Made by a program: the position numbers and the translations under genes. The notes beneath the pieces were generated by a model. That model made no database searches and had not been told where the DNA came from. It saw only the letters and a program-made list of their open reading frames with translations. Below, piece after piece: positions 34,365-53,866 of a stretch of 64,000 nt of DNA. Position 1 is the first letter of the stretch. Each line of letters opens with the position of its first letter. The DNA lies in NCBI RefSeq assembly GCF_034119845.1, contig NZ_CP139420.1:3474001-3538000 (forward strand), in the 5' to 3' direction. This DNA comes from Flavobacterium sp. NG2. GTDB lineage: Bacteria > Bacteroidota > Bacteroidia > Flavobacteriales > Flavobacteriaceae.

Positions 34365-34709
34365 TTAAATTAATTGAAAAACTTTTTCTAAAGGAATCCA
34401 TTTTTCTCCTTCTTTTGCCCATGGTAATTCTTGTTGGTAATTCCACATTAAGTTTTCCCATTCTTGCACTTTAGGATTAGTAGCATCCATCTCCGCTTTC
34501 TTAGCTGGATTAAAAGTTTCATCTACTTCCATAATCATAAACATACGATTTCCTGTAAGGTAGATTTGCATGTCTACAATTCCAGCTTCTTTAATACTTT
34601 TAGTTATTTCTGGCCAAGCTTTACCCTCGGCATGGTAGGCTTTATACTCCGCTATTAATTTAGAATCGTCTTTCAAATCACATGAAAAACAATGACGTGT
34701 TATCCCCAT
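34365..34709 (-). CDS. L-rhamnose/L-fucose mutarotase family protein (DUF718, RhaM-like)
   Basis: A 114-residue cytoplasmic protein of the RhaM-type dimeric alpha-beta-barrel family, which interconverts the anomers of L-sugars so that the next enzyme or permease has its substrate. Family features are an N-terminal strand with HCFSCDLKDD, the HAEGKAWPEITKSI segment, the central IYLTGNRMFMIMEVD strand and the C-terminal VFQL. I start at the ATG at 34709 (MGITRHCF). The longer frame to 34760 would overlap the permease gene and adds a non-homologous leader. It is the last gene of the sugar-acid operon. RhaM-family proteins are also found in oxidative fucose clusters, such as that of Campylobacter jejuni. 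Confidence 0.85.
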   Translation of the reverse strand: MGITRHCFSCDLKDDSKLIAEYKAYHAEGKAWPEITKSIKEAGIVDMQIYLTGNRMFMIMEVDETFNPAKKAEMDATNPKVQEWENLMWNYQQELPWAKEGEKWIPLEKVFQLI

Positions 34710-34713
34710 TTTT

Positions 34714-36036
34714 TTATTTTTTTGATTGTTGAAAAGTAGTATAACCATAGAACGCCACAACTGACAAACAGATTAAAGGCAAGATGAAGGAGAAATTAAC
34801 CTCAGGAATGAATCCTAAAATTTTCACATCAGAAAACCCAGGTCCTCCCCAGTCTAAAATACTTCCTTGTAATACAGGCATCAAAGCACCACCAACGATA
34901 GCCATCACCAAACCAGCCGAACCAATTTTAGCTTCTTCTCCCATGTTTTTTAAAGCAATTCCATAAATAGTAGGGAACATAATAGACATAAATACCGAAA
35001 TAGCAACCAATGAAATTAATCCTGGCATCCCTTGCAAAAGGATGGCTCCTGCACAGCAAACCACTCCACCAATACCAAAAAACATTAAAATTTTAGAAGG
35101 GTTAACGGTTTTCATTAAGGCAGTTCCAATCCATCTTCCTATTAAGAAAACAATCATTGCAGCCACATTAAAATAAGTAGCAGTCAATTCCAGTCCGAAA
35201 GTTTGGTTAATGTTATCTACATACTGGAAAATAAATGTCCAACACATAATTTGTGCCCCTACATAAAAAGCTTGTGCCACCACACCTAATTTGTAGTTTT
35301 TATTAGCAAATAATTTGGTAAAGGACTCCGATAAAGACATTTTGTCCTCTTCGGCAGTTTTAGGCATTTTAGTAAAAATAATAATCCCTAAAATAATCAA
35401 AACCAAAACTCCTAATCCAATGTAAGGACCGCTGATAACATTTAAGTCATTTTCTCTAATCGCAGCTACCTCATCTGAGGACAAAGCTTTGTAAGCTACT
35501 TCTGAATAATCATCCGACTTTAAGGCATTAATCACAAAAACTTGTGCCATAATCATTCCTGATAGCGAACCAATAGGGTTGAAAGCTTGCGCTAAATTCA
35601 ATCGTTGGGTAGCCGTTTCGGGATCTCCTAAGAATAAAATTAACGGATTGGATGTGGTTTCAAGAAAAGCCAGTCCACAAGTGATAATCCATAAGGAAAG
35701 AAGAAAATAAGTATAATCTTGATAAGCCGCAGCAGGATAAAATAAAAATGCCCCTGTTGCGTATAAAAGCAAACCCACTATTATTCCCGACTTGTAACTG
35801 TACTTTCTAATGAAAAGTGCTGCTGGTAATGCCATGAAAAAATAGCCAAAATAAAATGCAAATTGTACTAATGAAGCCTGCATATTAGACAATTCAGGCA
35901 TTACTTTTTTAAATGCTGACACCATTGGATTGGTCAAATCATTAGCAATTCCCCATAAAGCAAATAAGGAAGTGATGATAACAAAAGGAAAAAGTAGGTC
36001 TTTACGAACTACTGAGATTTTAGCTGTTTGCGCCAT
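34714..36036 (-). CDS. fucP: FucP-type L-fucose/L-galactose:proton symporter (MFS)
   Basis: A 440-residue, twelve-helix inner-membrane transporter of the FHS/FucP family. Helix 1 carries LFALWGIANDLTNPMVSAF, followed by the family motif SLVQFAFYFGYFFMALPAAL and SYKSGIIVGLLLYATGA. The conserved Glu is in FLETTSNPLILFLG. E. coli FucP accepts L-galactose as well as L-fucose, so the substrate here can be either. Oddity: the acidic residue of helix 1 sits in A-N-D-L (Asp33), and the position aligned with E. coli Asp46 (A-N-N-L-N-D) is Asn36. The gap to the upstream aldo/keto reductase is 98 bp; the mutarotase follows after 4 bp. Confidence 0.88.
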   Translation of the reverse strand: MAQTAKISVVRKDLLFPFVIITSLFALWGIANDLTNPMVSAFKKVMPELSNMQASLVQFAFYFGYFFMALPAALFIRKYSYKSGIIVGLLLYATGAFLFYPAAAYQDYTYFLLSLWIITCGLAFLETTSNPLILFLGDPETATQRLNLAQAFNPIGSLSGMIMAQVFVINALKSDDYSEVAYKALSSDEVAAIRENDLNVISGPYIGLGVLVLIILGIIIFTKMPKTAEEDKMSLSESFTKLFANKNYKLGVVAQAFYVGAQIMCWTFIFQYVDNINQTFGLELTATYFNVAAMIVFLIGRWIGTALMKTVNPSKILMFFGIGGVVCCAGAILLQGMPGLISLVAISVFMSIMFPTIYGIALKNMGEEAKIGSAGLVMAIVGGALMPVLQGSILDWGGPGFSDVKILGFIPEVNFSFILPLICLSVVAFYGYTTFQQSKK

Positions 36037-36134: not shown

Positions 36135-37085
36135 TTATCGGTTTGAAATGATTGTATTTGTAATTTCGTCAAAAACAGACTCTTCTAGCTTGCCTTCTTT
36201 CCAAGCATCTAATAAATCAATTAATTGGTCTTTGGTTGTAGGACCTACAACTACTCTATCCGCTTCTTGGGTTGAGAAAACATAACGAAGCGCTAATCGT
36301 GATAATGGAATGTCATGTTTTTTAGCGATTTCATTTATTTTCAATGCAACATCAACATCTGTATTGGTTATCCATTCATTATTTGGACGCTCTTCGGCAT
36401 AGGTTTCTAATCTTCTACCTAATAATCCCATATGCAAAGCTGAAGCGGCATAATACCCCATCCCTTCTCTTTTGATTTGTGGAATATCTTTGTCAAAAGC
36501 AGTGATATTACAAGCGTCTAATTTTAAAAATCCTGAAACCACATCAAAATTCTCTTTAATCATATGCGGGTAAAAAGGAGTCGTCGGGTTTCCACCAACA
36601 CCTAATTGCCCTACAATACCTTCTTTTTGAAAAGAATGCAAACAATCCATGATTTCATCCATTTTTTCAACAGGAACCAAATGCGGTTCATGCAAAAACA
36701 ACAAATCAATTTTGTCTAAGCCTAACACTTCTAAACTTTCGTAAAGACTTTTTTTCATCGTTTCTGGTGAATAATCTACAATACAATCATCAGCCTTTTC
36801 AGAACGAAGACGACCGACTTTGGTACTGATAAAAGGTTTTTCACCTGACCATTCTTTTAGTGTTTTTCCTAAAAAAAATTGGGATTTATTATATGAAGGT
36901 GCGGTGTCAAAAACACGTACTCCATCCTCTAAAGCATGCAATAGTGTGTCAATAGCCACTTTTTCTTCAATTGGTCTCCAAACGCCGCCAAGCCCTGAAC
37001 AGCCAACAACCAAACGACTTTCGTTATTAAAAAAAGGACTTTTTGTGTAATCGCCTGTGATATATGTGGGTTTTGTATTTGTCAT
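36135..37085 (-). CDS. Aldo/keto reductase, L-fucose/L-galactose 1-dehydrogenase type
   Basis: A 316-residue AKR with the full catalytic tetrad: Asp60 and Tyr65 (VFDTAPSY), Lys89 (ISTKVG) and His132 (LFLHEPH). It belongs to the D-threo-aldose/L-fucose/L-galactose dehydrogenase branch (NESRLVVGCSGLGGVW, then GVRVFDTAPSYNKSQFFLGKTL), which oxidises C1 of 6-deoxy-L-galactose or L-galactose to the lactone. The neighbours (lactonase 5 bp upstream, FucP downstream) support this first oxidation step. Whether NAD or NADP is used is not readable here. Confidence 0.85.
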   Translation of the reverse strand: MTNTKPTYITGDYTKSPFFNNESRLVVGCSGLGGVWRPIEEKVAIDTLLHALEDGVRVFDTAPSYNKSQFFLGKTLKEWSGEKPFISTKVGRLRSEKADDCIVDYSPETMKKSLYESLEVLGLDKIDLLFLHEPHLVPVEKMDEIMDCLHSFQKEGIVGQLGVGGNPTTPFYPHMIKENFDVVSGFLKLDACNITAFDKDIPQIKREGMGYYAASALHMGLLGRRLETYAEERPNNEWITNTDVDVALKINEIAKKHDIPLSRLALRYVFSTQEADRVVVGPTTKDQLIDLLDAWKEGKLEESVFDEITNTIISNR

Positions 37086-37090: not shown

Positions 37091-37918
37091 TTATAAGTTA
37101 TAAAAATTAATTGCGTTTTGTCCCATAATTTTACTTTGCTCTTCAACAGAAAGGGGCGCAATAAATTGAGTTACTAATTCTTTTGTTTGGGTATAATTTC
37201 CCGCTACTAAACATACCGGCCAATCAGAACCAAATAAAATTCGGTCTATTCCAAATGCCTCTAGTACCAGTTGCATATAGGGATGAATTTGTTCAGGTGT
37301 CCAAGATTTATAATCCGCCTCAGTAGTCATGCCTGATAATTTGCAATACACATTTTTTTGTTTACCAATGGCTAACATCAACGTTGCCCAACCTTCGTAA
37401 AAACCATCTTTAATATACGGTTTCGCAATGTGGTCAATTACAAATTTTTGATTGGGGAATCTTTTCACTAATTCTAAAGCGGGACCCAATTGGTGTGGAA
37501 AAATCAGAATATCATAAGTGAAATTATATTTTTCCAAAGCGGCAATACCTCTTAAAAAGTTGGGTCTCAATAAAAAGTTGTGATCTGGTTCTCCTTGTAC
37601 CACATGTCTAAACCCTTTGATTTTGGGATATTGGCTGTATAAAGCCAGTACTTCATCAATATTAGCAGCTCTTAAATCCACCCAGCCTACAATTCCTTTG
37701 ATAAAATCATTCTTAGTGGCGAGTTCTAATAAAAAATCTGTTTCGGCTAGAGTCTGATCAGCTTGAACAGCTACGCAACCATCAATTCCGTTTTCTTGGT
37801 ATACAATAGCTAGGTCATCAGGCATAAAATCGCGACGGATAACAGCCATTTCGTCGTCAATCCAATCGTGTTTATTGGGTTCGTATTGCCAAAAATGTTG
37901 GTGTGAATCTATTGCCAT
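37091..37918 (-). CDS. L-fucono/L-galactono-lactonase, amidohydrolase superfamily (COG3618)
   Basis: A 275-residue TIM-barrel metal-dependent hydrolase. The metal-binding motif is His6-x-His8 in DSHQHFW. Further conserved elements are GFRHVVQGEPD, FVIDHIAKP and the C-terminal LFGSDWPVC with its catalytic Asp. This is the signature of COG3618 sugar lactonases, which include L-fuconolactonase. In the pathway it would open the lactone made by the adjacent aldo/keto reductase to L-galactonate (or L-fuconate). It lies 4 bp after uxaB. Confidence 0.88.
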   Translation of the reverse strand: MAIDSHQHFWQYEPNKHDWIDDEMAVIRRDFMPDDLAIVYQENGIDGCVAVQADQTLAETDFLLELATKNDFIKGIVGWVDLRAANIDEVLALYSQYPKIKGFRHVVQGEPDHNFLLRPNFLRGIAALEKYNFTYDILIFPHQLGPALELVKRFPNQKFVIDHIAKPYIKDGFYEGWATLMLAIGKQKNVYCKLSGMTTEADYKSWTPEQIHPYMQLVLEAFGIDRILFGSDWPVCLVAGNYTQTKELVTQFIAPLSVEEQSKIMGQNAINFYNL

Positions 37919-37922: not shown

Positions 37923-39383
37923 CTATTTTGCTAAAATATTTTTGATTTCAGTCTCCATTCCGTTGTTCTCAATAGCTTCGATATTTTTGGCTACAGCCAA
38001 AGATAAACCTGCCATTGCATCTAGGTTTTGTCCCCAAATAGTAGTATTCGAAAGAATAGTTTGTACTAATTCAGTAGTAGTAATTTCACCGGCCTCCTTT
38101 TGTTTCCAAGTTTCCTTGAAAAAATCCAAAGTGGGTTGGGCATCATTAACCGCAATCGCTTCGCCATTAAATTCCCCTTTGTAAAAACGGATTAAACAGG
38201 ATAATGAAAACACAATTCGTTTAGGCAACTCATCATAAGCAACGGTATATTCGCTTAAAGCGGGAAACAAACGCGCCATGAATTTAGACGTACTATTCAA
38301 CGAAATACTAATCAAGAAATGCTTGAGCGTAGGATTCTTGAATCGGTCTAAAACGGCCTTTACAAAATAGTTTAATTCTTTTTCAGGGAAATTCTGAAGG
38401 GTTTTCGTGATTTCTTCGGATAAAACTTCGTTTACAAATTGCAGTATCAAAGGATTATCCATCGACTCTTTAACCGTGCGTAATCCTGACAAATACGCCA
38501 CTGGAACAAGTGAAGTATGTGCTCCGTTTAAGATGCGCACTTTCATTTCGCGATACGCACGAGCATCATCTACAAACTGAACATTCAAATTCGTTTTTGC
38601 AAATGGCAATTCGGTTTGTACAATTGCTGGCCCTTGAATCACCCAACTGTGATAGTCTTCACCGGCAACTAATAAAGGGTCTTCATAACCAATTTGGTTC
38701 AAAATACTTTCAGCACGATCCGTAGGATAACCCGAAACGATTCTGTCCACCAAAGTATTACAGAAATAGTTGGAGTTATTCAACCATTCGATAAAAGCCT
38801 CTGATAAATTAAAATGTTTAGCATATTGCAAAAGTGTAGCATGCAAAGCGTCTCCGTTTTGCTCAATCAGTTCACAAGGCATGATGATGCAACCTTTGGA
38901 CTTATCTCCGTTAAAAAATTGAAAACGATGGTGCAACCAGACAATCAATTTTGCTGGAAATTCATGAGGTGGATTGTCATTGAAAGCATCTGCTTCCGAA
39001 AATTTAATTCCAGACTCCGTTGTATTGGATACAATGAATCTCAAATCAGGACTTTCAGCCAGTTTTAAATATTCCTCCCATTGGGTGTACGGTTGAATCA
39101 CTCGGCTAACGCTTTCGACTAAGGTAACGGTAGAAACTAATTCACCATTTCTGATTCCGTCCAAAGCCAGGTGAAACAAACCCTCTTGTTCTTTTAATTC
39201 GTCATAATCCCCTCTTTTAGTAGGTTTGATAATGACAATACTTCCGTTGAAGTTGGTTTCTTTGTTCAAAACATCAAACATCCAATCCGTAAAAGCACGT
39301 AGAAAGTTTCCACCGCCAAATTGCATCACTCTTTCTGGAGCTATAGTGGTTTTATTTGCTGTTGTTCTATTTAATTTTTGCAT
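37923..39383 (-). CDS. uxaB: Tagaturonate reductase (altronate oxidoreductase), UxaB
   Basis: A 486-residue member of the mannitol-dehydrogenase family. The N-terminal nucleotide-binding motif is VMQFGGGNFLRAF, followed by IVIIKPTKRGDY, and the catalytic-domain segment is VRILNGAHTSLVPVAYLSG. UxaB reduces D-tagaturonate to D-altronate with NADH in the cytoplasm. It sits between uxaA (after a 96-bp gap holding a palindromic repeat) and the lactonase. There is no uronate isomerase gene in the window. The likely tagaturonate source is the LgoD-like dehydrogenase at the head of this operon. Confidence 0.9.
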   Translation of the reverse strand: MQKLNRTTANKTTIAPERVMQFGGGNFLRAFTDWMFDVLNKETNFNGSIVIIKPTKRGDYDELKEQEGLFHLALDGIRNGELVSTVTLVESVSRVIQPYTQWEEYLKLAESPDLRFIVSNTTESGIKFSEADAFNDNPPHEFPAKLIVWLHHRFQFFNGDKSKGCIIMPCELIEQNGDALHATLLQYAKHFNLSEAFIEWLNNSNYFCNTLVDRIVSGYPTDRAESILNQIGYEDPLLVAGEDYHSWVIQGPAIVQTELPFAKTNLNVQFVDDARAYREMKVRILNGAHTSLVPVAYLSGLRTVKESMDNPLILQFVNEVLSEEITKTLQNFPEKELNYFVKAVLDRFKNPTLKHFLISISLNSTSKFMARLFPALSEYTVAYDELPKRIVFSLSCLIRFYKGEFNGEAIAVNDAQPTLDFFKETWKQKEAGEITTTELVQTILSNTTIWGQNLDAMAGLSLAVAKNIEAIENNGMETEIKNILAK

Positions 39384-39479: not shown

Positions 39480-41129
39480 TTAAAGCGAAATCCCTCTTTT
39501 CCAAGGAATAAAATCGTTTTGACCTTTGATTTCGGCTTTCGAAATTTCGCCATTTGCCACTCTGATGATGTGTTCTAAGATGTTTTCGCCCATCGATTCA
39601 ATGGTGTCTTCACCTGTGATGACCGTTCCCGCATTAATATCAATGATGTCGTTCATTTTGTTAAAAAGAGTGGTATTGCTCGACAATTTCAAAACCGGTG
39701 CAATAGGGTTTCCTGTAGGCGTTCCTAAACCAGTGGTAAAAACCACCACATTACAACCAGAACCCGCTAAGGCTGTGGTGCTTTCTACATCATTTCCAGG
39801 CGTACAAAGCAAGTTCAATCCTGGTTTTCTTATTTTTTCGGTATAATCTAATACTTGAGCGACTGGTGAAGTTCCTCCTTTTTTGGCAGCACCTGCTGAT
39901 TTCATAGCATCGGTAATTAAACCGTCTTTGATGTTTCCTGGCGAAGGGTTGTTTTCAAATCCGGATCCTACGGCAACGGCAGCAGCAGAATAGGCTCTCA
40001 TCAATTGAGAGAACTTTTTCGCATCTTCTTCTGTTTTACATCTGTTGATGATGTCTTGTTCCACACCGTTTAATTCAGGAAATTCCGAAAGTACGGGTGA
40101 ACCTCCAATAGCGGCTAGTAAATCAGAAGCATAGCCAAGAGAAGGATTGGCTGAAATACCAGAAAATCCATCCGAGCCACCACATTCTAATCCCAAAACA
40201 ATTTTGCTGATAGGAGCTGGTTGACGAGCGATTTTATTGGCTTCAATTAATCCTAAAAAAGTATGTTTTACAGCCTCTTCGATCAATTGACGCTCGCTCG
40301 CACTTTTTTGTTGCTCTAAATAATGGATAGTTTTTTTACAGTTTGGATCTCTGTCTTCAATCGCTTTTTGGAGCATATGAATTTGTGCATTTTGACACCC
40401 TAAACTAAAGATGGTTGCTCCAGCGACATTTGGATTGGTAATATAGCCTGCCAACAAATTACAAAGTGCTTCAGAATCTTGACGGATGCCACCACAACCA
40501 CCATCGTGTTTCAAGAATTTGATGCCATCCACATTCGGGAAAAGTCGGTTTTTAGCGATTTCCTCTTTGGTGGAAATAATCGGAGTGTTTAGGATTTCTT
40601 CAGCACTTGCACCTGCTTTGTATTGTTGGATTAAAGCATCGGTATCCACAGCAAAATCTTTGACTGTTTCGTATCCTAATTTTTCGGCTAAAGCCCCTTC
40701 GAGTACATCAATGTTTCTGTTTTCACAAAAAGTAAGTGGAATCACCAACCAGTAATTTCTTGTGCCTACGCTACCGTCTGCTCTATGAAAACCGTTGAAA
40801 GTACGTCCTTCAAATTTTGAAGTGTCAGGAGCGTTCCAAACAAATTTTTCATTGGAATCATTAAAATCAGCCGAAGCGTGTTTGGTATTTTCGATAGTAA
40901 TCGCTTCTCCTTTTTGAATAGGCAACATCGCTTTTCCAATCAGCACACCATACATATAAATTTCGTCACCCACAGCTAAATCAACGGTGGTGAATTTATG
41001 TTTTTGTTTGATGTTTTGTACCAAAGTGATTTCGTCTCCGTTATGCGGAATAATAGTTCCTTTGGGTAAATCAATTAAGGCAGCAATAATGTTGTCTTTG
41101 GGATGTATTTGTACAAATGTTTTTGACAT
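39480..41129 (-). CDS. uxaA: Altronate dehydratase, UxaA
   Basis: A full-length 549-residue UxaA. Residues 1-85 are the SAF domain (VQIHPKDNIIAALIDLPKG, NIKQKHKFTTVDLAVGDEIYMYGVLIGKA). Residues from about 110 form the large UxaA C domain (GFHRADGSVGTRNYW, HDGGCGGIRQDSEALC, LGLECGGSDGFSGISANP, KSAGAAKKGGTSPV). It dehydrates D-altronate to 2-keto-3-deoxy-D-gluconate (KDG). In the split UxaA pair of the Campylobacter jejuni fucose cluster the same fold handles fuconate, so L-fuconate is an alternative substrate. It lies 11 bp after the LgoD-like gene. Confidence 0.92.
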   Translation of the reverse strand: MSKTFVQIHPKDNIIAALIDLPKGTIIPHNGDEITLVQNIKQKHKFTTVDLAVGDEIYMYGVLIGKAMLPIQKGEAITIENTKHASADFNDSNEKFVWNAPDTSKFEGRTFNGFHRADGSVGTRNYWLVIPLTFCENRNIDVLEGALAEKLGYETVKDFAVDTDALIQQYKAGASAEEILNTPIISTKEEIAKNRLFPNVDGIKFLKHDGGCGGIRQDSEALCNLLAGYITNPNVAGATIFSLGCQNAQIHMLQKAIEDRDPNCKKTIHYLEQQKSASERQLIEEAVKHTFLGLIEANKIARQPAPISKIVLGLECGGSDGFSGISANPSLGYASDLLAAIGGSPVLSEFPELNGVEQDIINRCKTEEDAKKFSQLMRAYSAAAVAVGSGFENNPSPGNIKDGLITDAMKSAGAAKKGGTSPVAQVLDYTEKIRKPGLNLLCTPGNDVESTTALAGSGCNVVVFTTGLGTPTGNPIAPVLKLSSNTTLFNKMNDIIDINAGTVITGEDTIESMGENILEHIIRVANGEISKAEIKGQNDFIPWKRGISL

Positions 41130-41140: not shown

Positions 41141-42154
41141 TTAAGAATTAAATTCGACAGTGGCTTTGATAACACCTGTTGCAGGATTTAACCAGCTATC
41201 AAAATTTGCAATCATGTCCGTAAAAGGCACTGAATGTGTAATGAAAGAATCTGTTGGGAATTGGTCTAATACATTGATTACGTGTTCAAAATCCTCTGTA
41301 GTGGCATTACGACTGCACATCAAAGTCATTTCTTTGGCATGAATGGCAGGGTGTGTATAAGTCAATTCCCCTTTGGATAAGCCCACTAGTACAAAACGAC
41401 CACCGTGTGACATATAATTTGGTGCCGATTCTAAAGCTCCTTTGTGTCCTGAAGCATCAAAAACCGCTGTACATAGATCGCCATTGGTAATTTCCTTGAT
41501 TGCTTCAACAGCATTTTCGCCTGCTATAACCGTATAATCAACTCCAATTTTTTCTTTGGCGTAGGCCAAACGCTGTTCATTCATATCGATAGCGATTACT
41601 TTCGCACCTGCAATTTGGGCTAACTTCATAATCCCAATCCCAATAGGACCACAACCAATAACGGCTACTGTTTCACCAGCAACAATTCCAGCTCTACGTA
41701 CTGCATGTGCACCAATAGCAAGCGGTTCTACAATTGCCATTTGGTCATTTGACAAATGATTCGCTGGTAATAAAATGTTGGCAGGAACCGTAATTTGTTC
41801 TTGCATGCCGCCATCAGTATGTACTCCTAATACTCTGATATTGGTACAACAGTTGGTTTTTCCATTACGACAGGCAATACATTCTTGACAACTGATATAT
41901 GGCATCACCACTACTTTATCACCTGCTTTGATTCCTCTTGGGTTATCCCCAATTTCTAAAACAGTTGAAGCCAATTCGTGTCCTAAAATTCTAGGATAGG
42001 TAAAAAAAGCTTGATTGCCACTATAGGCGTGCAAATCGGTTCCGCAAATTCCTACCTTATTAATTTGTAATAAAGCTTCGTTTTCTTTTCTGATAGGAGC
42101 TTCTTTTTCTTTCAGTAAAAATTCTCCTGGCTTTTCGCAAACAATGTATTTCAT
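41141..42154 (-). CDS. lgoD: Zinc-dependent MDR dehydrogenase, L-galactonate 5-dehydrogenase (LgoD) type
   Basis: A 337-residue medium-chain dehydrogenase. The catalytic zinc site has Cys37 (GICGTD) and His59-Glu60 (RILGHE). The structural zinc cysteines are in SCQECIACRNGKTNCC, and the Rossmann motif is VIGCGPIGIG. By recall of E. coli LgoD (YjjN) it shares GICGTDxHAxxGNQxFFxYPR, GVHxDGG, IxAHAVRRAxI, FVGLxKGEL and SRNATxEDF. This marks it as an L-galactonate 5-dehydrogenase producing D-tagaturonate. It is the first gene of the operon, with a palindromic operator 27 bp upstream of its ATG. Close alternatives are other hexonate or polyol dehydrogenases. Confidence 0.8.
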   Translation of the reverse strand: MKYIVCEKPGEFLLKEKEAPIRKENEALLQINKVGICGTDLHAYSGNQAFFTYPRILGHELASTVLEIGDNPRGIKAGDKVVVMPYISCQECIACRNGKTNCCTNIRVLGVHTDGGMQEQITVPANILLPANHLSNDQMAIVEPLAIGAHAVRRAGIVAGETVAVIGCGPIGIGIMKLAQIAGAKVIAIDMNEQRLAYAKEKIGVDYTVIAGENAVEAIKEITNGDLCTAVFDASGHKGALESAPNYMSHGGRFVLVGLSKGELTYTHPAIHAKEMTLMCSRNATTEDFEHVINVLDQFPTDSFITHSVPFTDMIANFDSWLNPATGVIKATVEFNS

Positions 42155-42181
42155 TTTATTTTTTTGTTTATTATTATTTTA

Positions 42182-42195
42182 TTCAAACGTTTGAA
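42182..42195. promoter_or_regulatory. LacI-type operator O1 upstream of the sugar-acid operon
   Basis: A perfect 14-bp palindrome TTCAAACGTTTGAA with a central CpG, typical of LacI-family sites. It lies 27 bp upstream of the lgoD ATG, near the expected transcription start. It shares the TTCAA/TTGAA half-sites with the second operator at 42324-42355. Confidence 0.75.
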
Positions 42196-42355: not shown

Positions 42356-42362
42356 AAAGAAA

Positions 42363-46400: not shown

Positions 46401-47715
46401 GAATAATTTACTTTCTAATGCATTCAAATTTACTTCTGAAGGAGGAAAAATTACTGTGGAAATATTGGATGGTAAAGACCATACTATTGTTTCTGATATG
46501 GAAATTAATGCAAATCCATCCGATTACATCATCATCAAAGTAAAAGATTCTGGTTTAGGAATTCCGCCGCACCGATTAAAATTTATTTTTGAACGTTTTT
46601 ATGTCGATAAAGATTATCGAAAAGTGAATACGCAAGGAACAGGAATTGGTTTGGATTTTACTAAAAAATTAGTCGAATTACATCAAGGCCAGATCGAAGT
46701 TACTAATAACAAAAAACGAGGTGCTTCCTTCTTTATTTGGTTGCCTAAAAACAAAGGTGCCTATGAAAATATCAATGGAATCACTTTTGGAGGTGAAACA
46801 GAAAATAATGTTTTCACTACCGAATTAAATGCTGAGACACATGCCGTCGAAGTATTGGATGAAATTGTAGATCAAAACGAACACAAATCAAGATCTAAAT
46901 TACCTGTTTTATTAATCGTTGAGGATAATCCTGATATTCGCATTTTAATTAAAAATGGATTGGAAAAACAATATGATATCTATGAAGCCGAAAATGGACA
47001 ACGAGGTTTGGAGTTGGCAAATAAATTAATGCCGAATATTATTTTGACAGACATTTTTATGCCTATTATGGATGGAATTGAAATGTGTGAAAAACTCAAA
47101 ACCACTTCTGAGACCAGTCATATTCCAATTGTGATGCTTACTGCAAAAACATCTACAGAATGGGAAAAAGAAGGTTTAAAAAATGGTGCCGATGGCTACA
47201 TTCGTAAACCATTTGATATGGAATTATTAGAATTGAAACTCAAAAACATTCTCAAATACAGAGAAGATTTGCGACGAAAATTCAACAGAGAAACGACCTT
47301 ACAACCAAATGAAGTTACGGTAACCTCAGCTGACGAACGCTTTTTACAAAAAGCAATTGAAGTGGTTGAAAAACACATGATGAATACCGAGTTTAGCGTG
47401 GAATTGATGGTCAAAGAAATGGCTTTGAGCCGAAGCAATTTGTACTTAAAAATTAAAGAACTTACAGGTTTATCTTCGAGTGAATTTATTCGAAACATTC
47501 GTTTAAAAAGAGCGATGCAATTATTAGAACAAAGCGATCTTTCTGTCAAAGAAATTATGTATATGACTGGTTTTAATACCGCTTCCTACTTTTCAAAATG
47601 CTTCAAAAAACAATTTGGAGTGATTCCTAGTAAATATTTACGAGAAGAGGAAATGGATGAGTCCGATTTAAATGAATCAAACGAAATCGATTCAAAGGAG
47701 GAGGATACCGAATAA
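43423..47715 (+). CDS. Hybrid two-component system sensor/regulator (HTCS)
   Basis: A 1430-residue one-protein two-component system of the PUL type. After a signal peptide (about residues 1-31), two Reg_prop beta-propellers (repeats such as FMWFGTHDGLNKYDG, LWIGTTGGGLNFF, MWIGTEGGGLNYI) reach about residue 700. A YYY domain (about 740-815) and a membrane helix (about 824-844) follow. The histidine kinase has His880 in NISHEFRTPL and ATPase boxes near 992-1080 (NLLSNAFKF, DSGLGI, GTGIGL). The receiver has Asp1210 in LTDIFMP. The AraC-type DNA-binding domain occupies about 1325-1410. It should sense an oligosaccharide in the periplasm and activate the susC/enzyme operons. It lies 28 bp after the LacI gene and is probably cotranscribed with it. 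Confidence 0.96.
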   Translation: MPKLTNPTRSYSCSTLLKTFFLLFFAMQLSAQEENSFIHLNTDNGLSQSDINTIYQDKQGFMWFGTHDGLNKYDGYNFSVYKPDLNDKKSISSNLVWKIVEDQHNNLWIGTTGGGLNFFDKKTETFTHFKNEVGNNLSVVSNTISALYKDKKNRLWIGTPKGIDMLDLNKPIKNAVFNHYEINLKQHINSWDGSNVNSIFEDSKNNIWVGSKFGLFKLVKNRQGENYFEHTGLINISVRSIAEDEFGRLIIGAHNGLFIISSKNNKIAVDLISNEIFTCLLSTKGYLWAGSSNGLYRFENASTLKLPYLIKKYSYDPKNPELGLSKSDVKSLFLDKGGILWIGVNGGGVNKFNPNVKRFKHIKKTLNPSSLSNDKVRCIFEDSNQYMWIGTEGGGLNYIKKGQKYVDFTNLLSTLKIFALAEVKEGNSKKLLIGAEGTNGLYELDITHPNSISKAQIKNIKQIDHSVFSILVDSKKNVWIGTYNGGVQRWLATETTGVYKKDILYQNSNRPTSISNNIIRSIYEDSKGNIWFGTADGLNKLPAHQIRKNNPNFEIFKNKTNDPSSLSHNYILAIHESRYGDLWIGTFGGGLNKLIPAKIGKEESFKSYSEKDGLPNNVIKGILEDSYGNLWLSTNKGLSRFTIKSEKFKNYDVNDGLQSNEFSELAYLKRTNGELLFGGINGFNTFYPNQIKDNLVKPKTVFTSFSIFNKPIAIGEEFNGRVILNQSINTIDEIELLYSENSFSVEFSSLNYTAPRKNGYAYKLEGFNDDWIYTSYKNRLATYTNLAPGTYTLLVKSSNNDGVWNETPASIKITVVPPFWRTNFAYFIYFIVFIGFLMALRRFEIIRSAKKHQLELEVFEKEKHDEMHRLKLEFFTNISHEFRTPLTLIKGPLEYLQKNSGTISTEKVNEQYGIMHKNIDYLLRLVNQLLDFRKMDKGKLDLIVWKSNLLEFLKLVGEPFQFLSHKKNIDFKINSKIENPILWFDTDALEKIMNNLLSNAFKFTSEGGKITVEILDGKDHTIVSDMEINANPSDYIIIKVKDSGLGIPPHRLKFIFERFYVDKDYRKVNTQGTGIGLDFTKKLVELHQGQIEVTNNKKRGASFFIWLPKNKGAYENINGITFGGETENNVFTTELNAETHAVEVLDEIVDQNEHKSRSKLPVLLIVEDNPDIRILIKNGLEKQYDIYEAENGQRGLELANKLMPNIILTDIFMPIMDGIEMCEKLKTTSETSHIPIVMLTAKTSTEWEKEGLKNGADGYIRKPFDMELLELKLKNILKYREDLRRKFNRETTLQPNEVTVTSADERFLQKAIEVVEKHMMNTEFSVELMVKEMALSRSNLYLKIKELTGLSSSEFIRNIRLKRAMQLLEQSDLSVKEIMYMTGFNTASYFSKCFKKQFGVIPSKYLREEEMDESDLNESNEIDSKEEDTE

Positions 47716-47900: not shown

Positions 47901-49289
47901 TTATTCTACCAACACTTCATCAATTTCCCAATTTCCTTTTTCAGCGCTCAATTGCAAACCTACTTGCATCAATCTTTCGTTAATTTGATGAAATTTCGAT
48001 AAGTCAATCGTGTAGGTTTTGAACTTTGTATCTTGGGCTGTTATAGGAACTGAAATCCATTCTTGTTTACTCCAATCTATTTGTCCTGTTCCTGTAGACC
48101 AAAAATTAGCAGAACGATTACGGGTATAAAGCGCTAGTTTTAATTCCTTGGCTTTGCTGTTGTTTTTTATTTTAATGGTTATTTTTGAACATGATGCTGT
48201 TTCAGTGTATAACCATGGCGCACTTTGAACAATTGCCTCTTTGGCTGTAATTTTTCCAATTAATTTCCCATCCTTAAATGAAATTGCTGTACCTCCTAAA
48301 GCACTCCACCCCATGGTACTGTTTTTAAATTCAAAAGGCCTGCCAGGAGAAGGATACATTCGATCTTCTTTAGGAATAATAATAGTTTCGTCTTTGTTAA
48401 AAAAAACAGGTTTTAAACTTGCTCCTCTGTAAAACGCACTAATATCATGGTTTTCTTGTAGCACATACAATTGATTTTTCCATTCAAAAAAACTAGTATG
48501 TCCGCCTTTTAAGAAAGCGCCTTTAAATTCATAGGGGCCATATAAATTCTTAGACATCGCATACCTACTTCCAAACACTAAATAATAATAACCATTGCGT
48601 TTGAATAACGTTGACTTATCTTCTGTATTCATCCTTTGTCCCTTTTCATCCTGAATAATAATTGCTTTGGGTTCTGTTGCCAACGATTTCATATCCTTAG
48701 ATAAAGTAGCCATATAGTAGGTTCCTGCTCCAAAACAAATGGTATAAACATCGTTTTCTACAAAAACCTCAGGATCATAGGGATGTACTGGAACAATCCC
48801 TTCAGGCAATAGAGGCTTTCCTAACAAATCCTTGTATTCCCCAGTTGCATGGTCAGCCACCATGACACCTGTATCTTTGTTTCTGTTGGAAAAAAACCAA
48901 TAAAATTTTCCATCCCGTTCCGTTATATCTCCTGCCCAGCAATTCGGCTGATTGCCAATGTAGGTTTGGGAGGGATAAATATTTCTACGGTGTTTCCAAT
49001 TTTTTAAATCGCCCGAAGACCAAACCTCCCAACGATCCATTCTAAAAGAGCCTTTGCCTTCCCACGATTCATCATGCCCACAAATCACATAAACGGTATC
49101 GTTTTGTACCCAAGCATGAGGGTCGGCCATTCCGTGTTCAGGAGCAATGACATCCACATGAAGTGCGTTAGGATTGATTCCCCAACTGCTACGATGATCA
49201 TCTTTACCGTGTTTCACTCCTATTTGTGCCACAATACTGTGGGTAATTAATCCTAGTACTACTAGTGTATAGTTTTTAAAAAAAATCAT
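47901..49289 (-). CDS. GH43-clan beta-propeller glycosidase with C-terminal sandwich
   Basis: A 462-residue exported enzyme (signal peptide about residues 1-21). A five-bladed propeller covers about residues 45-335, with acidic residues in the expected GH43 places: Asp56 (MADPHAW), Asp172 (HPYDPEV) and Glu223 (NTEDKSTLF). CGHDE and MDRWEVWSSGDLKNW are typical of this fold. A beta-sandwich of about 120 residues closes the protein (WLYTETASCSKITIKIKNNSK...WEIDEVLVE in pieces). GH117 (3,6-anhydro-L-galactosidase) shares the fold, but I do not see its particular motifs clearly enough to choose it. It is a single gene between a bidirectional terminator and a 442-bp gap. Confidence 0.8.
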   Translation of the reverse strand: MIFFKNYTLVVLGLITHSIVAQIGVKHGKDDHRSSWGINPNALHVDVIAPEHGMADPHAWVQNDTVYVICGHDESWEGKGSFRMDRWEVWSSGDLKNWKHRRNIYPSQTYIGNQPNCWAGDITERDGKFYWFFSNRNKDTGVMVADHATGEYKDLLGKPLLPEGIVPVHPYDPEVFVENDVYTICFGAGTYYMATLSKDMKSLATEPKAIIIQDEKGQRMNTEDKSTLFKRNGYYYLVFGSRYAMSKNLYGPYEFKGAFLKGGHTSFFEWKNQLYVLQENHDISAFYRGASLKPVFFNKDETIIIPKEDRMYPSPGRPFEFKNSTMGWSALGGTAISFKDGKLIGKITAKEAIVQSAPWLYTETASCSKITIKIKNNSKAKELKLALYTRNRSANFWSTGTGQIDWSKQEWISVPITAQDTKFKTYTIDLSKFHQINERLMQVGLQLSAEKGNWEIDEVLVE

Positions 49290-49731: not shown

Positions 49732-50367
49732 TCATGAGTTTTCCTTTACAAGTTTTACGTAATTTCGAGCTATTTTTCTAGTTTCTTCAATATCAATGGC
49801 ACCGTTCTCCGGGTTTTTCATAAGACATCCGTAACCAATCCCTTCTACACCAGCATCAAACCATTTTCTAGCATCAGAAAATTCAACGCCACCAACAGCA
49901 AAATAATGTATATTATCTAATGGTCCCTTTATCGCATTAAAATATTCAATTCCTAAATTGCCGGCAGGAAATAACTTTACAATATCAGCACCATTTTCAT
50001 GAGCTTCGCAAATTTCGGTTGGAGTAAGAGCTCCCATTATAACTGGTATATTATTTTGATGAGCTACTCTTATCACCTCTAGGTTAACATTTGGGGTCAC
50101 TAAAAATTGAGCTCCAGCTTGAATTACTTTTTCAGCTATTTTAGTATTGATAACAGTTCCAGCACCTATCAAAACGTCAGGATAACTTTTACGAGCTTTT
50201 GATATTGCCGCTAAATATCCTGGAGTATTAGACGTTATTTCAAGTACTTTAATTCCTTCTGAAATTACTGTTTCTAAAACAAGTTCAATTATCTCTTGAT
50301 TCTTGGTTCTTAGTATTGCAACTAGCTTTTCTTTCCTTATGATTTTGATTATTTCTTGTCTATTCAT
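49732..50367 (-). CDS. eda: 2-keto-3-deoxy-6-phosphogluconate (KDPG/KDPGal) aldolase
   Basis: A 211-residue class I aldolase. The Schiff-base Lys131 is in GADIVKLFPAG and the catalytic Glu43 is in VLEITSNTP. GAGTV, VTPN and YFAVGGV are the usual phosphate- and substrate-site motifs. It splits KDPG (or the galactonate epimer) into pyruvate and glyceraldehyde 3-phosphate in the cytoplasm. Its ATG overlaps the kinase stop by 4 bp (ATGA), so the two are coupled. It completes the KDG branch fed by UxaA and possibly by the enolase-superfamily enzyme. Confidence 0.93.
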   Translation of the reverse strand: MNRQEIIKIIRKEKLVAILRTKNQEIIELVLETVISEGIKVLEITSNTPGYLAAISKARKSYPDVLIGAGTVINTKIAEKVIQAGAQFLVTPNVNLEVIRVAHQNNIPVIMGALTPTEICEAHENGADIVKLFPAGNLGIEYFNAIKGPLDNIHYFAVGGVEFSDARKWFDAGVEGIGYGCLMKNPENGAIDIEETRKIARNYVKLVKENS

Positions 50368-51368
50368 CGTAAAACATGTCCTGAAGTGTTACCTTCCATT
50401 ATTGATAATATTTCTTTTTCGGTACTTGTATGTTGATCACCTTGAATGGTATGCTTTAAAGCAAAAGCAGAGGCGGCGAACTCGATTGTTTTTTGATAGT
50501 TCCAACCAGCATTTAGCCCATGCATACAAGCAGCAGCAAAAGCATCTCCTGTTCCAAACCTATCCGTTATTAACACATTAAATGTTTGTGATATGTAATG
50601 GTTAGTACCTGAAACAATAATACCTGTTAATTTATTTTCACTTGCAGATATATGATCTCGAACTGTAAAAGCGATTTTACTAACTCCAAATTTTTGCTGC
50701 ACTTTAGTCATGGATTCAACAGTTTCTTCAATAGAATTATCCGAATAATCCATTTGATATACATCTTTCAAAACACCTAAATTTCCAAACAAAATATCTG
50801 TATTTTCAATAATTTGATCAAAAATATTCCTTGCATCTGTAACACTTTTCCATAAAGTACGTCTGTAATTCATATCAAAACAAACTTTAACCCCTAGCTT
50901 TTTGGCTATTTTAGTAATGGCAATAGATTCAAGAGCACATTGATTCGAAAGTGATGCTGTTATTCCTGATAAAAACAACCATTCTTTATCTTTTAAAATA
51001 TCCTCCCAATCAAATTCGCCTTTTTCGATTTGACTAAAAGATGAGTGGGCTCGATCATAAATAACACTTGATGGTCGTATGGAAGAACCTATTTCTATAA
51101 AGTAGGTGCCGATCCTTCCATCACCTCTAATAATATTATGGGCATTTATTCCGTAACCTTTGATAGCGTTTATTGCAGCGTCTCCCAATTGGTTTTCAGG
51201 CAATTTAGTAACAAAACTCACTTTGTTATGTAACATAGACAATGAGGTGGCTACATTTGATTCGGAACCAGCGAAATTGAGATCAAATGAGCGGGATGAA
51301 TATATTTTTTCACCCTGTTTAATAGGTGTAAAACGAACCATTATTTCACCAAAAGTTATAAAACTCAT
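50364..51368 (-). CDS. kdgK: 2-keto-3-deoxygluconate kinase (PfkB family)
   Basis: A 334-residue ribokinase-fold sugar kinase. The N terminus has ITFGEIMVRFTP and FAGSESNVATSLSML. The ATP-site motif DRFGTGDAF carries the catalytic base Asp275. The GEIMVRF start and the CFDMNYRRTLW segment are characteristic of KDG kinases. It phosphorylates C6 of KDG; this requires a C6 hydroxyl and so cannot act on products of the 6-deoxy sugar L-fucose. Gene order MFS-dehydratase-kdgK-eda suggests one operon. Confidence 0.92.
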   Translation of the reverse strand: MSFITFGEIMVRFTPIKQGEKIYSSRSFDLNFAGSESNVATSLSMLHNKVSFVTKLPENQLGDAAINAIKGYGINAHNIIRGDGRIGTYFIEIGSSIRPSSVIYDRAHSSFSQIEKGEFDWEDILKDKEWLFLSGITASLSNQCALESIAITKIAKKLGVKVCFDMNYRRTLWKSVTDARNIFDQIIENTDILFGNLGVLKDVYQMDYSDNSIEETVESMTKVQQKFGVSKIAFTVRDHISASENKLTGIIVSGTNHYISQTFNVLITDRFGTGDAFAAACMHGLNAGWNYQKTIEFAASAFALKHTIQGDQHTSTEKEILSIMEGNTSGHVLR

Positions 51369-51405
51369 ATTTTTTTTTTAATTTTTACTATTTAATTAGG
51401 CAATA

Positions 51406-52563
51406 TTACCAATTGGTAAAAGAACCATCCTTACGTCTTAATCGAGGAATTTCAGTAGGTCTAAAAGAGAGGCTTTTTGCATATTCTTCATTGAATTCAA
51501 CCCCTAAGCCAGGAGAATCAAGAATTTTATATCTTGTACCTTCTAGTTTAGGTTGTACAGGATAAAATTTAGGGTCATTAGTTAATACGTGTGCTCCTGT
51601 ATTTACTTCTTCTAACCAACTAAAATTAGGACAAGCAGCTGCCAAATGTATCGTAGCTGCAGTACAAATAGGTCCTAAAGGATTATGCGGCATCAAATCA
51701 ATATAATGTGCCTCCGCCAAAGATGCCACTTTCATAGCTTCTGTTAGTCCACCCACATTACATACATCAACACGTGCATATTGTGCTATATTACGTTCTA
51801 AAAATGGTAAAAACTGCCATTTACTAGAAAACTCTTCCCCAATTGCAAAAGGTACATTAATAAGTTTCCTTAAAGCTTCATAAGCTTCTGGGTTTTCATC
51901 CCTTATAGGTTCTTCAATAAAATCAATCGTTCCAGTAGGCATTCTATTTATAAAAGAATATGTTTCTGGTAATGTCAGACGAGTGTGGTAATCAATTCCG
52001 ATAGTAATTTTAGGTCCAATTTCTTGTCTCAATTTTGTAACCCAATCTGCAATAGTAGCTATGGATTCCCTTGGTTCAAAAATTGTTTTATCGGTTTGTT
52101 CTTCAAATTCAGCAGGAGCTAATCGTAACATATTCCATCCTTCATTTACTAACCCTTTTGAAAGTCTCAGTAATTCATCTAATGTTGAAAAACGTACTGA
52201 GGCAAAACATTCTACAAAATCTCTTTGTTTTCCTCCTAATAATTCATAAACAGGAATCCCCAAATACTTGCCTTTTATATCATACAAAGCGATATCAATG
52301 GCAGAAATGGCAGCAGTTAAAACTCTCCCTCCCTCAAAATATTGACCTCTATATAAATCTTGCCAAATTGCTCCTATTTGATTTGGATCTTTTCCTATTA
52401 ATAGTGGTTTAAAATGTTCAATAGCTCCAATTACAGCCAGTTCTCTACCTGATAATCCTGAAGCCCCCCAACCATAAATCGTAGCATCTGTTTCTATTTT
52501 AATTACTAGTTGGGTTCCTGTACCAACATTTATTGGATAGGTTTTAATATTTGTTATTTTCAT
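51406..52563 (-). CDS. Enolase-superfamily acid-sugar dehydratase/cycloisomerase (DgoD-like)
   Basis: A 385-residue mandelate-racemase-type protein. The metal ligands are present: Asp191, Glu217 (FIEEP) and Glu243 (IGEEF). His193 (DYHTR) and His293 (PHNPLGPI) match the two catalytic histidines of D-galactonate dehydratase. The first-base region, K-x-K or K-x-N in relatives, reads R147-L-A149 here, so chemistry may differ. Candidate reactions yielding a 2-keto-3-deoxy acid for KdgK are dehydration of a hexonate or cycloisomerisation of 3,6-anhydrogalactonate, as enolase-superfamily enzymes do in agar and carrageenan pathways. The choice is open. Confidence 0.82.
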   Translation of the reverse strand: MKITNIKTYPINVGTGTQLVIKIETDATIYGWGASGLSGRELAVIGAIEHFKPLLIGKDPNQIGAIWQDLYRGQYFEGGRVLTAAISAIDIALYDIKGKYLGIPVYELLGGKQRDFVECFASVRFSTLDELLRLSKGLVNEGWNMLRLAPAEFEEQTDKTIFEPRESIATIADWVTKLRQEIGPKITIGIDYHTRLTLPETYSFINRMPTGTIDFIEEPIRDENPEAYEALRKLINVPFAIGEEFSSKWQFLPFLERNIAQYARVDVCNVGGLTEAMKVASLAEAHYIDLMPHNPLGPICTAATIHLAAACPNFSWLEEVNTGAHVLTNDPKFYPVQPKLEGTRYKILDSPGLGVEFNEEYAKSLSFRPTEIPRLRRKDGSFTNW

Positions 52564-52582
52564 ATTTTAAAAAAAAATAAAA

Positions 52583-53866
52583 TTAGTTTTCATCAATTTC
52601 TATTCGTTTTATATCTCCTACTAAGAATACATAGGATAGCAAGCCTATTAATGCTAAACCTCCAATAAAAAACAACGCAGGTTTAAAGTCTCCATCTTTA
52701 ACTAAAAAACCAATTGATACAGGTATCACTACAGATGACAATCCTCCAATTAAGTTAAAAACACCTCCAGTTAGTCCTATTAATCTCTTCGGAGCCATTA
52801 ATGAAATAAAAATCCAAGTAATACTTGCTAATCCATTGCCAAAAAAAGCCAAGGATAAAAATAAAATCACGAAAAAAGTATTGTCTGTATAATTTGCACC
52901 GATAATAAAGGTGGATAGCAACATTCCAAAAATTATGGGCATTTTTCTTGAAAATTCGTTTGAATATCCTTTTTTTATTAAAAAATCAGAAGTAAAACCC
53001 GCTAAAATAACTCCGGAAAAAGCAGCTAAAAAAGGTATCGAAGCTAAAAAACCAGATTGTAAAAAATCAAGACCTCTGTATTTAACCAAATAGGTTGGAA
53101 ACCAAGTTAGAAAAAAAATAGCGGTAGCTCCTAAACAAAATTGACCTATATATAAACCCCATAACTTTCGGTATATAAAAGCATGTTTTAAATCATTCCA
53201 TTCAAATTTTTTTTTCAATTTGATTTCATTTGAATAATTTTTGTTGTCTTGATTTATATATTCTAATTCAGACTCACTTACTTTTCTTGAATCTTCTGGA
53301 TCACGATAAATTTTAAACCAAATAATACCCCAAATTAAACCTATTACACCTGAAACGATAAATAAACCCCTCCATCCCATATAGTTTTGAATAGTAACTA
53401 ATAAAGGAGTTAAAAAAGCTAAACCAATATATTGTCCTGAAGTATAGATGCCAATAGCACTTGCACGTTCTTTTTCGGGAAACCATTTAGTTACTATTGA
53501 ATTATTAGTTGGGTAAGAAGGTGCTTCAAAAATTCCTACGCTAGCTCGTAAACCTATTAACATCGAAAAAGAATTAACAAAACCTTGTAATAAAGTTGCA
53601 AATGACCACAAAACTAGCATTAAAGAATACAAAAATCTAGCCTTAATTTTGTCAACCAATATTCCTCCAGGTATTTGTAATCCTGCATAAGTCCATGCAA
53701 AAGCAGAAAAAACTAATCCCATTTGTACCGAATTTAAATCAAGATCGTCAGCAATTGCAAAAGCAGCTACAGAAATATTACTCCTATCTAAATAATTTAT
53801 TACAACGGTTATAAAAACCATCATAAGAATTTTATATCGTTGTTTTGTAGTTGGTTTTGTTGTCAT
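52583..53866 (-). CDS. MFS transporter, anion:cation symporter family (hexuronate/aldonate)
   Basis: A 427-residue, twelve-helix inner-membrane transporter. The helix-1 motif INYLDRSNISVAAFAI and WFPEKERASAIGIYTSGQYIG are typical of the ACS family (ExuT, GarP, DgoT, LgoT), which imports sugar acids. It is the first gene of the KDG operon, 19 bp before the dehydratase-like gene. It probably brings in a monomeric acid sugar such as a hexonate or anhydro-galactonate. L-galactonate is possible too, since E. coli LgoT is an ACS protein. Confidence 0.88.
   Translation of the reverse strand: MTTKPTTKQRYKILMMVFITVVINYLDRSNISVAAFAIADDLDLNSVQMGLVFSAFAWTYAGLQIPGGILVDKIKARFLYSLMLVLWSFATLLQGFVNSFSMLIGLRASVGIFEAPSYPTNNSIVTKWFPEKERASAIGIYTSGQYIGLAFLTPLLVTIQNYMGWRGLFIVSGVIGLIWGIIWFKIYRDPEDSRKVSESELEYINQDNKNYSNEIKLKKKFEWNDLKHAFIYRKLWGLYIGQFCLGATAIFFLTWFPTYLVKYRGLDFLQSGFLASIPFLAAFSGVILAGFTSDFLIKKGYSNEFSRKMPIIFGMLLSTFIIGANYTDNTFFVILFLSLAFFGNGLASITWIFISLMAPKRLIGLTGGVFNLIGGLSSVVIPVSIGFLVKDGDFKPALFFIGGLALIGLLSYVFLVGDIKRIEIDEN

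Follow-up and report, generated by a model that had tools for sequence, protein, structure and literature searches.

A 64,000-nucleotide stretch of the Flavobacterium sp. NG2 genome (contig NZ_CP139420.1, positions 3,474,001 to 3,538,000; hereafter the window, with positions counted from its first letter unless given as genome positions) carries on its minus strand a seven-gene operon (operon 1, 42154 to 34365) that encodes an LgoD-like dehydrogenase, UxaA, UxaB, a lactonase, an aldo/keto reductase (AKR), FucP, and RhaM. We conclude that operon 1 is very probably a dedicated L-galactose catabolic operon within a porphyran-type polysaccharide utilization locus (PUL), with the pathway proposed in an earlier note on this DNA, in which L-galactose passes through its lactone, L-galactonate, D-tagaturonate, and D-altronate to 2-keto-3-deoxygluconate (KDG). 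This one operon holds every enzyme family of the oxidative L-galactose pathway from the aldose dehydrogenase to KDG, and the set is not a chance assembly, as it recurs in 16 loci with a close AKR. The gene families, their synteny, their conservation, and an operator motif are directly observed.

Operon 1 and its porphyran-type surroundings

Protein families were assigned with Pfam and curated NCBIfam models, and the closest solved relatives were identified through PDB matches (bit scores); all of the operon 1 genes named in the earlier note were found by these models, on the minus strand and at the positions it had given. The first gene (41141..42154) encodes a medium-chain dehydrogenase/reductase (MDR; Pfam ADH_N and ADH_zinc_N) that is predicted to convert L-galactonate to D-tagaturonate and keeps the structural-zinc cysteines 89/92/95/103. 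The comparison with characterized LgoD that the note had proposed gave 41% identity with E. coli LgoD (b4358) but no separation from the MDRs of loci without Uxa genes, which are 37–44% identical with the same protein, and sequence alone cannot set this MDR apart from its paralogues. The following two genes encode (i) UxaA, a D-altronate dehydratase (39480..41129; SAF, GD_AH_second, and GD_AH_C domains) with a single match genome-wide, and (ii) UxaB, a tagaturonate reductase (37923..39383; NCBIfam NF002969, 648 bits against a cut-off of 359), which is the sole close copy in the genome, two further matches being at 26–28%. The COG3618 aldonolactonase (37091..37918; Amidohydro_2) has the L-fucono-1,5-lactonase model (FuconLaconase) as its best NCBIfam match, at 261 bits and under the cut-off of 400, and 4dlf as its top PDB match (176 bits). 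UxaA and the lactonase are thus family matches with no NCBIfam model above cut-off, whereas UxaB and FucP pass theirs. The AKR (36135..37085) is of the L-galactose 1-dehydrogenase type by its PDB matches, of which the top two are L-galactose dehydrogenases (7lh6, 80 bits, and 7smi, 75 bits), followed by IolS at 69 bits; it carries Asp60/Tyr65/Lys89/His132, which we take to be the AKR tetrad. The operon ends with a FucP-type sugar:H+ symporter (34714..36036; TIGR00885, 505 bits, cut-off 280) and a RhaM/FucU-type mutarotase (34365..34709 in the open reading frame (ORF) table; PF05336, 109 bits), whose start is likely the ATG at 34709, 4 bases beyond the fucP stop.

The window around operon 1 is a sulfated-polysaccharide PUL with two SusC/SusD pairs (22193..33951, minus strand; SusD_RagB and TonB/Plug domains), five PF00884 sulfatases, a GH29, and a GH16, as well as two GH3, two GH43, and the C-terminal part of one GH2. 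The GH16 (59665..60951, minus strand) is β-porphyranase-like: its top PDB match is 4awd (178 bits), which presumably also comes from the porphyran PUL of B. plebeius, and matches two to four are porphyranases B, A, and A. An S1 sulfatase (18406..20088, minus strand) best matches the exo-L-galactose-6-sulfatase 7lha (620 bits), followed by 7snj and 7sno, deposited as "Arylsulfatase" (587 and 583 bits) and which we assume are probably the same enzyme as 7lha, and then by a match at 361 bits. The exo-α-L-galactosidase-like GH29 (15106..16689, minus strand) matches 7snk and 7ljj at 447 and 441 bits, compared with 296 bits for the next fucosidase; both structures are BpGH29, although 7snk is deposited as an α-L-fucosidase (PMC12316285, in the passages concerned). 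Judged by closest solved relatives, SusC/SusD, an endo-porphyranase, an L-galactose-6-sulfatase, and an α-L-galactosidase therefore stand together. The same passages of PMC12316285 describe the porphyranase, exo-L-galactose-6-sulfatase, and exo-α-L-galactosidase activities of the B. plebeius porphyran PUL (BpGH16, BpS1_11, and BpGH29), the system from which the closest solved relatives of our GH29 and sulfatase come; they cover depolymerization and not intracellular L-galactose catabolism.

In the proposed route, in which all enzyme specificities, transport, regulation, and flux are predicted from sequence, an extracytoplasmic β-porphyranase, an exo-L-galactose-6-sulfatase, and an exo-α-L-galactosidase, so named after their closest characterized relatives, would free L-galactose, which FucP would import and whose anomers RhaM would interconvert. 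The AKR would then oxidize carbon 1 to give the lactone; the COG3618 lactonase would open this to L-galactonate; LgoD would oxidize carbon 5 to give D-tagaturonate; UxaB would reduce the latter to D-altronate; and UxaA would dehydrate D-altronate to KDG. Finally, a kinase and an aldolase, most likely the KdgK/Eda pair encoded at 750 kb in the genome, would phosphorylate KDG and cleave the product into pyruvate and glyceraldehyde 3-phosphate. This substrate and this order of intermediates, as put forward in the earlier note, are supported by the families, by their conserved co-occurrence, by the porphyran-type exo-enzymes, and by the presence of a separate L-fucose locus.

Relatives of the operon and rival substrates

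A scan of genome contigs with the AKR found 87 loci, of which 80 were kept. The 16 loci with an AKR of at least 72% identity all contain LgoD, UxaB, the lactonase, FucP, and RhaM, and 15 of them contain UxaA; KdgK and Eda lie within or beside the operon in seven. Neither UxaA nor UxaB was found in the fetched stretches of the remaining 64 loci. The nearest named relative is Flavobacterium sp. UMI-01, with an AKR identity of 98%. In Mariniflexile (L017/L160), the L-galactose operon has no UxaA match between lgoD and uxaB. Many of the loci with an AKR at 47–58% (clade B, L027–L064) carry an enolase, a short-chain dehydrogenase/reductase (SDR), an MDR, a distant FucP, and a GH29 at about 50%, often with RhaM and without Uxa genes, and would represent an L-fucose-type route; no second AKR match at 1e-60 was found in the 18 clade B genomes tested. 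Four loci (L057, L058, L060, and L061) combine LgoD, the lactonase, and the AKR without Uxa genes. Phocaeicola (Bacteroides) vulgatus reportedly has this same combination, and its BVU_0219/0220/0222 set, known from Hobbs et al. 2014, is said to include the lactonase step; the AKR-based scan did not pick up the P. vulgatus genes. Of the 16 close-AKR genomes, 11 have a GH29 of at least 57% identity on the contig that bears the AKR (nine of them within 75 kb), versus none of 18 clade B genomes; the 57% threshold was set after the data were seen, the 18 clade B genomes were hand-picked, and G029 has a GH29 at 56%.

A second survey, chosen for its independence from the AKR, started from the lactonase; at E 1e-60, 127 of the 397 Flavobacteriaceae genomes sampled have a match, our own included. 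From 134 places outside this genome we sampled 80, namely all 69 at ≥60% identity and 11 hand-picked among the 65 weaker ones. UxaB is present in 42 of these 80 loci, representing 41 genomes and hence at least 41 of the 397 sampled in the family, and within reach of these 42 lie LgoD in 39, UxaA in 41, FucP in 33, and RhaM in 26. A fumarylacetoacetate hydrolase-type (FAH) hydrolase, which marks the oxidative L-fucose step and was called by BLAST except in two Pfam-confirmed cases, occurs in none of the 42 loci with UxaB versus 17 of the 38 without it (Fisher 2.8e-7); FAH and UxaB are mutually exclusive in the 80 relatives, and 21 of the 80 have neither. Likewise, a GH29 of at least 65% identity is found in 11/42 versus 0/38 loci (Fisher 5e-4) and an S1_11-type sulfatase of at least 60% in 7/42 versus 0/38 (Fisher 0.012). 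Among the 69 unselected loci, the corresponding values with and without UxaB are 0/41 versus 9/28 for FAH (p 1.2e-4), 10/41 versus 0/28 for GH29 (p 0.004), and 7/41 versus 0/28 for the S1_11-type sulfatase (p 0.036); as the loci are related by descent, all of these p-values are indicative only.

These distributions bear on a first rival, according to which operon 1 serves L-fucose and L-fuconate, with its AKR, lactonase, FucP, and RhaM working on fucose released by GH29. The names of FucP and GH29 and the top NCBIfam model of the lactonase, albeit below cut-off, point that way, and LgoD (≥45%) is also present in 10 of the 17 FAH loci; LgoD is hence non-specific and was rejected as a marker, and this finding slightly lowers the L-galactose reading while slightly raising that of L-fucose. 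We nevertheless consider L-fucose very unlikely as the main substrate and rejected it because of the FAH exclusion and a separate fuc locus at genome positions 3608892–3617170. The latter encodes FucI, complete in its three Pfam domains, and an FMN-dependent dehydrogenase, along with a class II aldolase and an aldehyde dehydrogenase (presumptive FucA and AldA) and another FucP, 56% identical to that of operon 1. It also overturns the earlier statement that no lactaldehyde- or lactate-forming enzyme is present, which fails genome-wide. By contrast, the chemical argument that L-fuconate lacks the C6 hydroxyl needed by KdgK is sound and agrees with the absence of FAH from UxaB loci; in the window itself, no FAA_hydrolase was found among the 37 distinct ORFs scanned with Pfam. 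In Wenyingzhuangia (L012), a fuc locus of similar layout, as judged by ORF sizes, protein starts, and FucP identity, adjoins the L-galactose operon. A UxaA relative is present in 6 of the 17 FAH loci, among them L140, L148, L206, L208, and L211 at about 61%; L140 and L148 have LgoD too, and such loci perhaps represent a third route, possibly another one for L-fucose, or a dual one.

A second rival holds that operon 1 is used for galacturonate, a distant UxaC supplying tagaturonate to UxaB and UxaA and leaving LgoD, the lactonase, and the AKR as accessories. The earlier note had dismissed galacturonate because UxaC was absent, an argument that fails because UxaC lies in the genome (3623997–3625382, beside UxuA and 86 kb beyond the window); since UxaA and UxaB are single copies, the operon could serve galacturonate as well. 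However, UxaC is about 109 kb from uxaA, neither within nor adjoining the operon, and the operon's sugar symporter, aldose dehydrogenase, and lactonase are superfluous for galacturonate and fit an aldose. Galacturonate as the main substrate is thus extremely unlikely and was rejected on operon content, while UxaA and UxaB may have a secondary use in galacturonate breakdown. A neighboring UxaB–UxaA pair of Flammeovirga is assigned to galacturonate in a passage of PMC5385347, which illustrates the customary interpretation of such genes.

Besides this assignment, the genomic UxaC, the overlapping LgoD identities, and the LgoD genes of FAH loci, several observations weigh against L-galactose as the dedicated substrate. 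The GH29 of a clade B, and so probably L-fucose, locus also matches BpGH29 best (384 versus 218 bits); this best match was accordingly rejected as a stand-alone discriminator, and the GH29 of the window supports L-galactose only jointly with the GH16 and the sulfatase. Several clade B genomes have S1_11-type and GH29 genes, among the matches listed, but no close AKR, and genome-level co-occurrence with these two families was rejected as evidence for this reason, linkage on the same contig alone being retained. Moreover, 5 of the 16 close-AKR genomes have no GH29 of at least 57% on the same contig, and 31 of the 42 UxaB loci have none of at least 65% within about 9.5 kb. Finally, the KdgK type encoded at 750 kb, our likely lower-half kinase, is also present in 6 of 28 non-UxaB loci.

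A second operon and the lower half of the pathway

The earlier note had completed the pathway with KdgK and Eda from a second, nearby operon. Both genes are indeed present there, but two others had been omitted: operon 2 (53866 to 49732, minus strand) comprises four genes that encode (i) a major facilitator superfamily (MFS) transporter of the D-galactonate family (52583..53866; TIGR00893, 402.7 bits, cut-off 395), (ii) an enolase-superfamily, galactonate-dehydratase-like dehydratase (51406..52563), (iii) a KDG/2-keto-3-deoxygalactonate (KDGal) kinase, KdgK (50364..51368; PfkB, with the KDG/KDGal kinase models below cut-off), and (iv) an aldolase for the corresponding 6-phosphates (KDPG/KDPGal), Eda (49732..50367; PF01081, with all matched NCBIfam models below cut-off). 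A transporter, an enolase-type dehydratase, a KDGal kinase, and a KDPGal aldolase in one operon form a De Ley–Doudoroff aldonate module. The top PDB match of the dehydratase is 3rr1, a putative D-galactonate dehydratase, and its score of 275 bits with the D-galactonate dehydratase model PRK14017 is under the cut-off of 311; because of this shortfall, we call operon 2 D-galactonate-type only.

Whether a single pathway spans both operons, with the KdgK and Eda of operon 2 as dedicated partners of operon 1, concerns only the lower half and is compatible with L-galactose as the substrate. In its favor, the operon 2 KdgK keeps all seven substrate residues named for FlKin and for that reason may still act on KDG; further, an operon 2-type enolase adjoins the L-galactose operon in 2 of the 42 UxaB loci (L138 and L173). 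Against it, operon 2 has its own dehydratase and a D-galactonate-family transporter, an operon 2-type KdgK occurs in none of the 42 UxaB loci versus 12 for the 750-kb type, and no copy of the operator described below was found before operon 2 in a motif search of the window and the genome. We regard such a split pathway as unlikely, and operon 2 as the dedicated lower half was rejected on its KdgK/Eda type and the missing operator. Its KdgK–Eda pair is therefore probably not the partner of operon 1, contrary to the earlier note, since those sister operons with a KdgK/Eda of their own use the other type, although it could be a helper. In L138 (G070), a 19-kb span takes in an operon 2-type enolase, an L-galactose operon with an SDR, LacI, and an S1_11-type sulfatase.

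The better candidates for the lower half of the L-galactose pathway are the KdgK and Eda at 750 kb. The KdgKs encoded within operons of the AKR set are 46–95% identical to one another, 52–59% identical to the 750-kb KdgK, and 32–36% identical to that of operon 2. A published portion of PMC5334617 reports the assayed enzymes FlKin and FlAld (genes flkin and flald) of Flavobacterium sp. UMI-01 and names the seven substrate residues. Read from the ATG that gives 340 residues, the 750-kb KdgK has all seven at the same numbers, and the 750-kb KdgK and Eda agree in length with flkin (1023 bp) and flald (669 bp), the agreement being one of length and residues. The residue check of the kinases also showed the GTGDA peptide of the kinase motif.

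Orthologues of the operon 2 enolase (≥64%) are present in 19 of 299 family genomes, including our own. Among 19 neighborhoods fetched from 24 places outside this genome, an MFS gene lies beside the enolase in 17, an operon 2-type aldolase in five, and an operon 2-type kinase in one. A distant enolase (26–28%) is nearby in five of the 19, three of which also have a 484-residue protein that, from protein starts, resembles an aldehyde dehydrogenase, an arrangement like that of anhydrogalactose clusters. Operon 2 is best described as a putative separate aldonate module of D-galactonate type, which we take to belong to red-algal galactan use.

Regulation, exchange of the first enzyme, and known systems

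Divergent from operon 1 is a gene for a LacI-family regulator (42303..43394, plus strand; LacI and Peripla_BP domains). The lgoD–lacI gap carries a palindrome, of which the same 16-base kind is found in 14 of 21 such gaps and another or none in seven. In the window, a candidate LacI-type operator, ATTCAAACGTTTGAAC, lies upstream of lgoD (42181..42196), and a second candidate, GTTCAAACGATTGAAC, falls within the opening codons of the lacI ORF as listed (42332..42347). Written as RTTCAAWCGWTTGAAY, the palindrome occurs without mismatch in 21 of 213 loci, some of which are copies of one record; they include L150, an FAH locus, as well as L057 and L061, which are without Uxa genes. The two copies in the window are the sole exact ones in the 4.15-Mb genome, where one further site (genome position 1944989) has one mismatch and a backward-read control gave one per strand. 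With up to two mismatches allowed, a window is expected to hold 0.60 matches by chance, and at least two are present in 14 of 100 shuffled versions; both copies in the real window, however, are exact. As the motif was partly drawn from the first site, the independent part of this evidence is the second site together with the absence elsewhere. Because exact copies are found only at lgoD and lacI, operon 1 seems to be under a private LacI switch that excludes operon 2, and the regulator would act through these two local operators. Translated in the frame of the listed lacI start, the operator at 42332–42347 gives the peptide FKRLN, and this lends an upstream start the appearance of conservation among relatives; lacI itself probably begins downstream, past 42347. 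Beyond lacI, the window encodes a hybrid two-component system as a PUL regulator (43423..47715, plus strand; Reg_prop, Y_Y_Y, HisKA, HATPase, Response_reg, and HTH_18) and one of the GH43 enzymes (47901..49289). Like lacI, these two genes fall inside the coordinates of the earlier note, which does not mention them. A 598-residue PUL protein (60974–62770) has zero Pfam matches at E 0.001.

The slot beside the lactonase, which would encode the first enzyme of the pathway, holds an AKR in six of the 42 UxaB loci, an SDR in 30, neither in six, and both in none; between the lactonase and fucP (L134–L213 and L011–L026), it is likewise one or the other, never both. We mapped the slot labels on trees of 47 loci, 17 of which have the AKR (11 AKR-chosen, the window, and five from the lactonase sample). 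The LgoD+UxaA tree requires 11 label changes, at least nine of them forced by well-supported branches; the lactonase tree requires 10 (at least four forced), and the LgoD+UxaA+lactonase tree 10 (at least six forced), compared with an average of 14.0 for shuffled labels. The trees come from rapid searches with no bootstrap, and the counts could be inflated by gene transfer within the operon. In one close pair, LgoD, UxaA, UxaB, FucP, RhaM, KdgK, and Eda are 88–97% identical and LacI 87%, with an AKR in the slot of one member and an SDR in that of the other; because the lactonase is only 76% identical in this pair, the lactonase and the slot may be swapped together. The SDR type is present in 15 of the 17 FAH loci, and the AKR type in none of the 38 non-UxaB loci. 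It is quite possible, though we stop short of calling it probable, that a widespread, modular Flavobacteriaceae operon forms the intracellular leg of porphyran use, its first enzyme having been swapped in place many times between the unrelated AKR and SDR folds, with an AKR form specialized for L-galactose and an SDR form that L-fucose loci also use.

In all, the L-galactose operon is genuine and conserved and lies in a porphyran-type PUL, and its chemistry is already known elsewhere: contrary to the novelty implied in the earlier note, the pathway has precedents in P. vulgatus (as far as tagaturonate), in Luteolibacter (whole), which belongs to the Verrucomicrobiota and not to the Bacteroidota, and in E. 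coli (lower half). The passages available from PMC12632266, citing Hobbs et al. 2014, describe the conversion of L-galactose to D-tagaturonate in P. vulgatus, with activities of BVU_0219 and BVU_0222. As described there, this bacterium, itself a member of the Bacteroidota, shares with operon 1 an AKR L-galactose dehydrogenase and an L-galactonate dehydrogenase that yields D-tagaturonate; what sets operon 1 apart is that it also includes UxaA and UxaB and is embedded in a porphyran-type PUL, and the likeness is one of described functions. The lguABCDE cluster of Luteolibacter sp. LG18 joins genes for an L-galactose dehydrogenase, an altronate dehydratase, a tagaturonate reductase, an L-galactonate dehydrogenase, and a KDPG aldolase; the enzymes were assayed and the genes disrupted, and the whole route consists of the cluster and an outlying kinase (PMC12632266, same passages). 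It differs from operon 1 in that the cluster also serves L-glucose and in that its KDG kinase, encoded outside the cluster, prefers pyrophosphate; that text on Luteolibacter contains neither the word lactonase nor the word agar. From L-galactonate down, the E. coli route (lgoT/lgoR/lgoD, UxaB, UxaA, KdgK, and Eda) has the same steps, and lgoD–uxaA–uxaB loci are described in Halomonas and Chromohalobacter (PMC5507952, in part). These systems, however, take up the acid and have no PUL, and in Halomonas the genes are joined to those for L-fucose/L-fuconate (PMC5507952, in the same part). Passages of PMC5613140 on Zobellia expression on porphyran contain no L-galactose genes. Among the titles and abstracts listed, where coverage of subscription journals is thin and a negative is weak evidence, we found none that joins such an operon to a porphyran PUL. 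What appears to be new to us is the placement of the operon, its operator, the distinction between uxaB and FAH loci, and the repeated exchange of the first enzyme.

The presence of uxaB and uxaA next to the lactonase, with no FAH hydrolase, is a marker that separates probable L-galactose loci from L-fucose loci whose genes bear the same names, and the operator motif is usable for finding the regulon. The repeated AKR/SDR exchange constitutes a natural test of the equivalence of two folds in one metabolic step. For marine Bacteroidota, the operon links the release of L-galactose from porphyran with its intracellular use.

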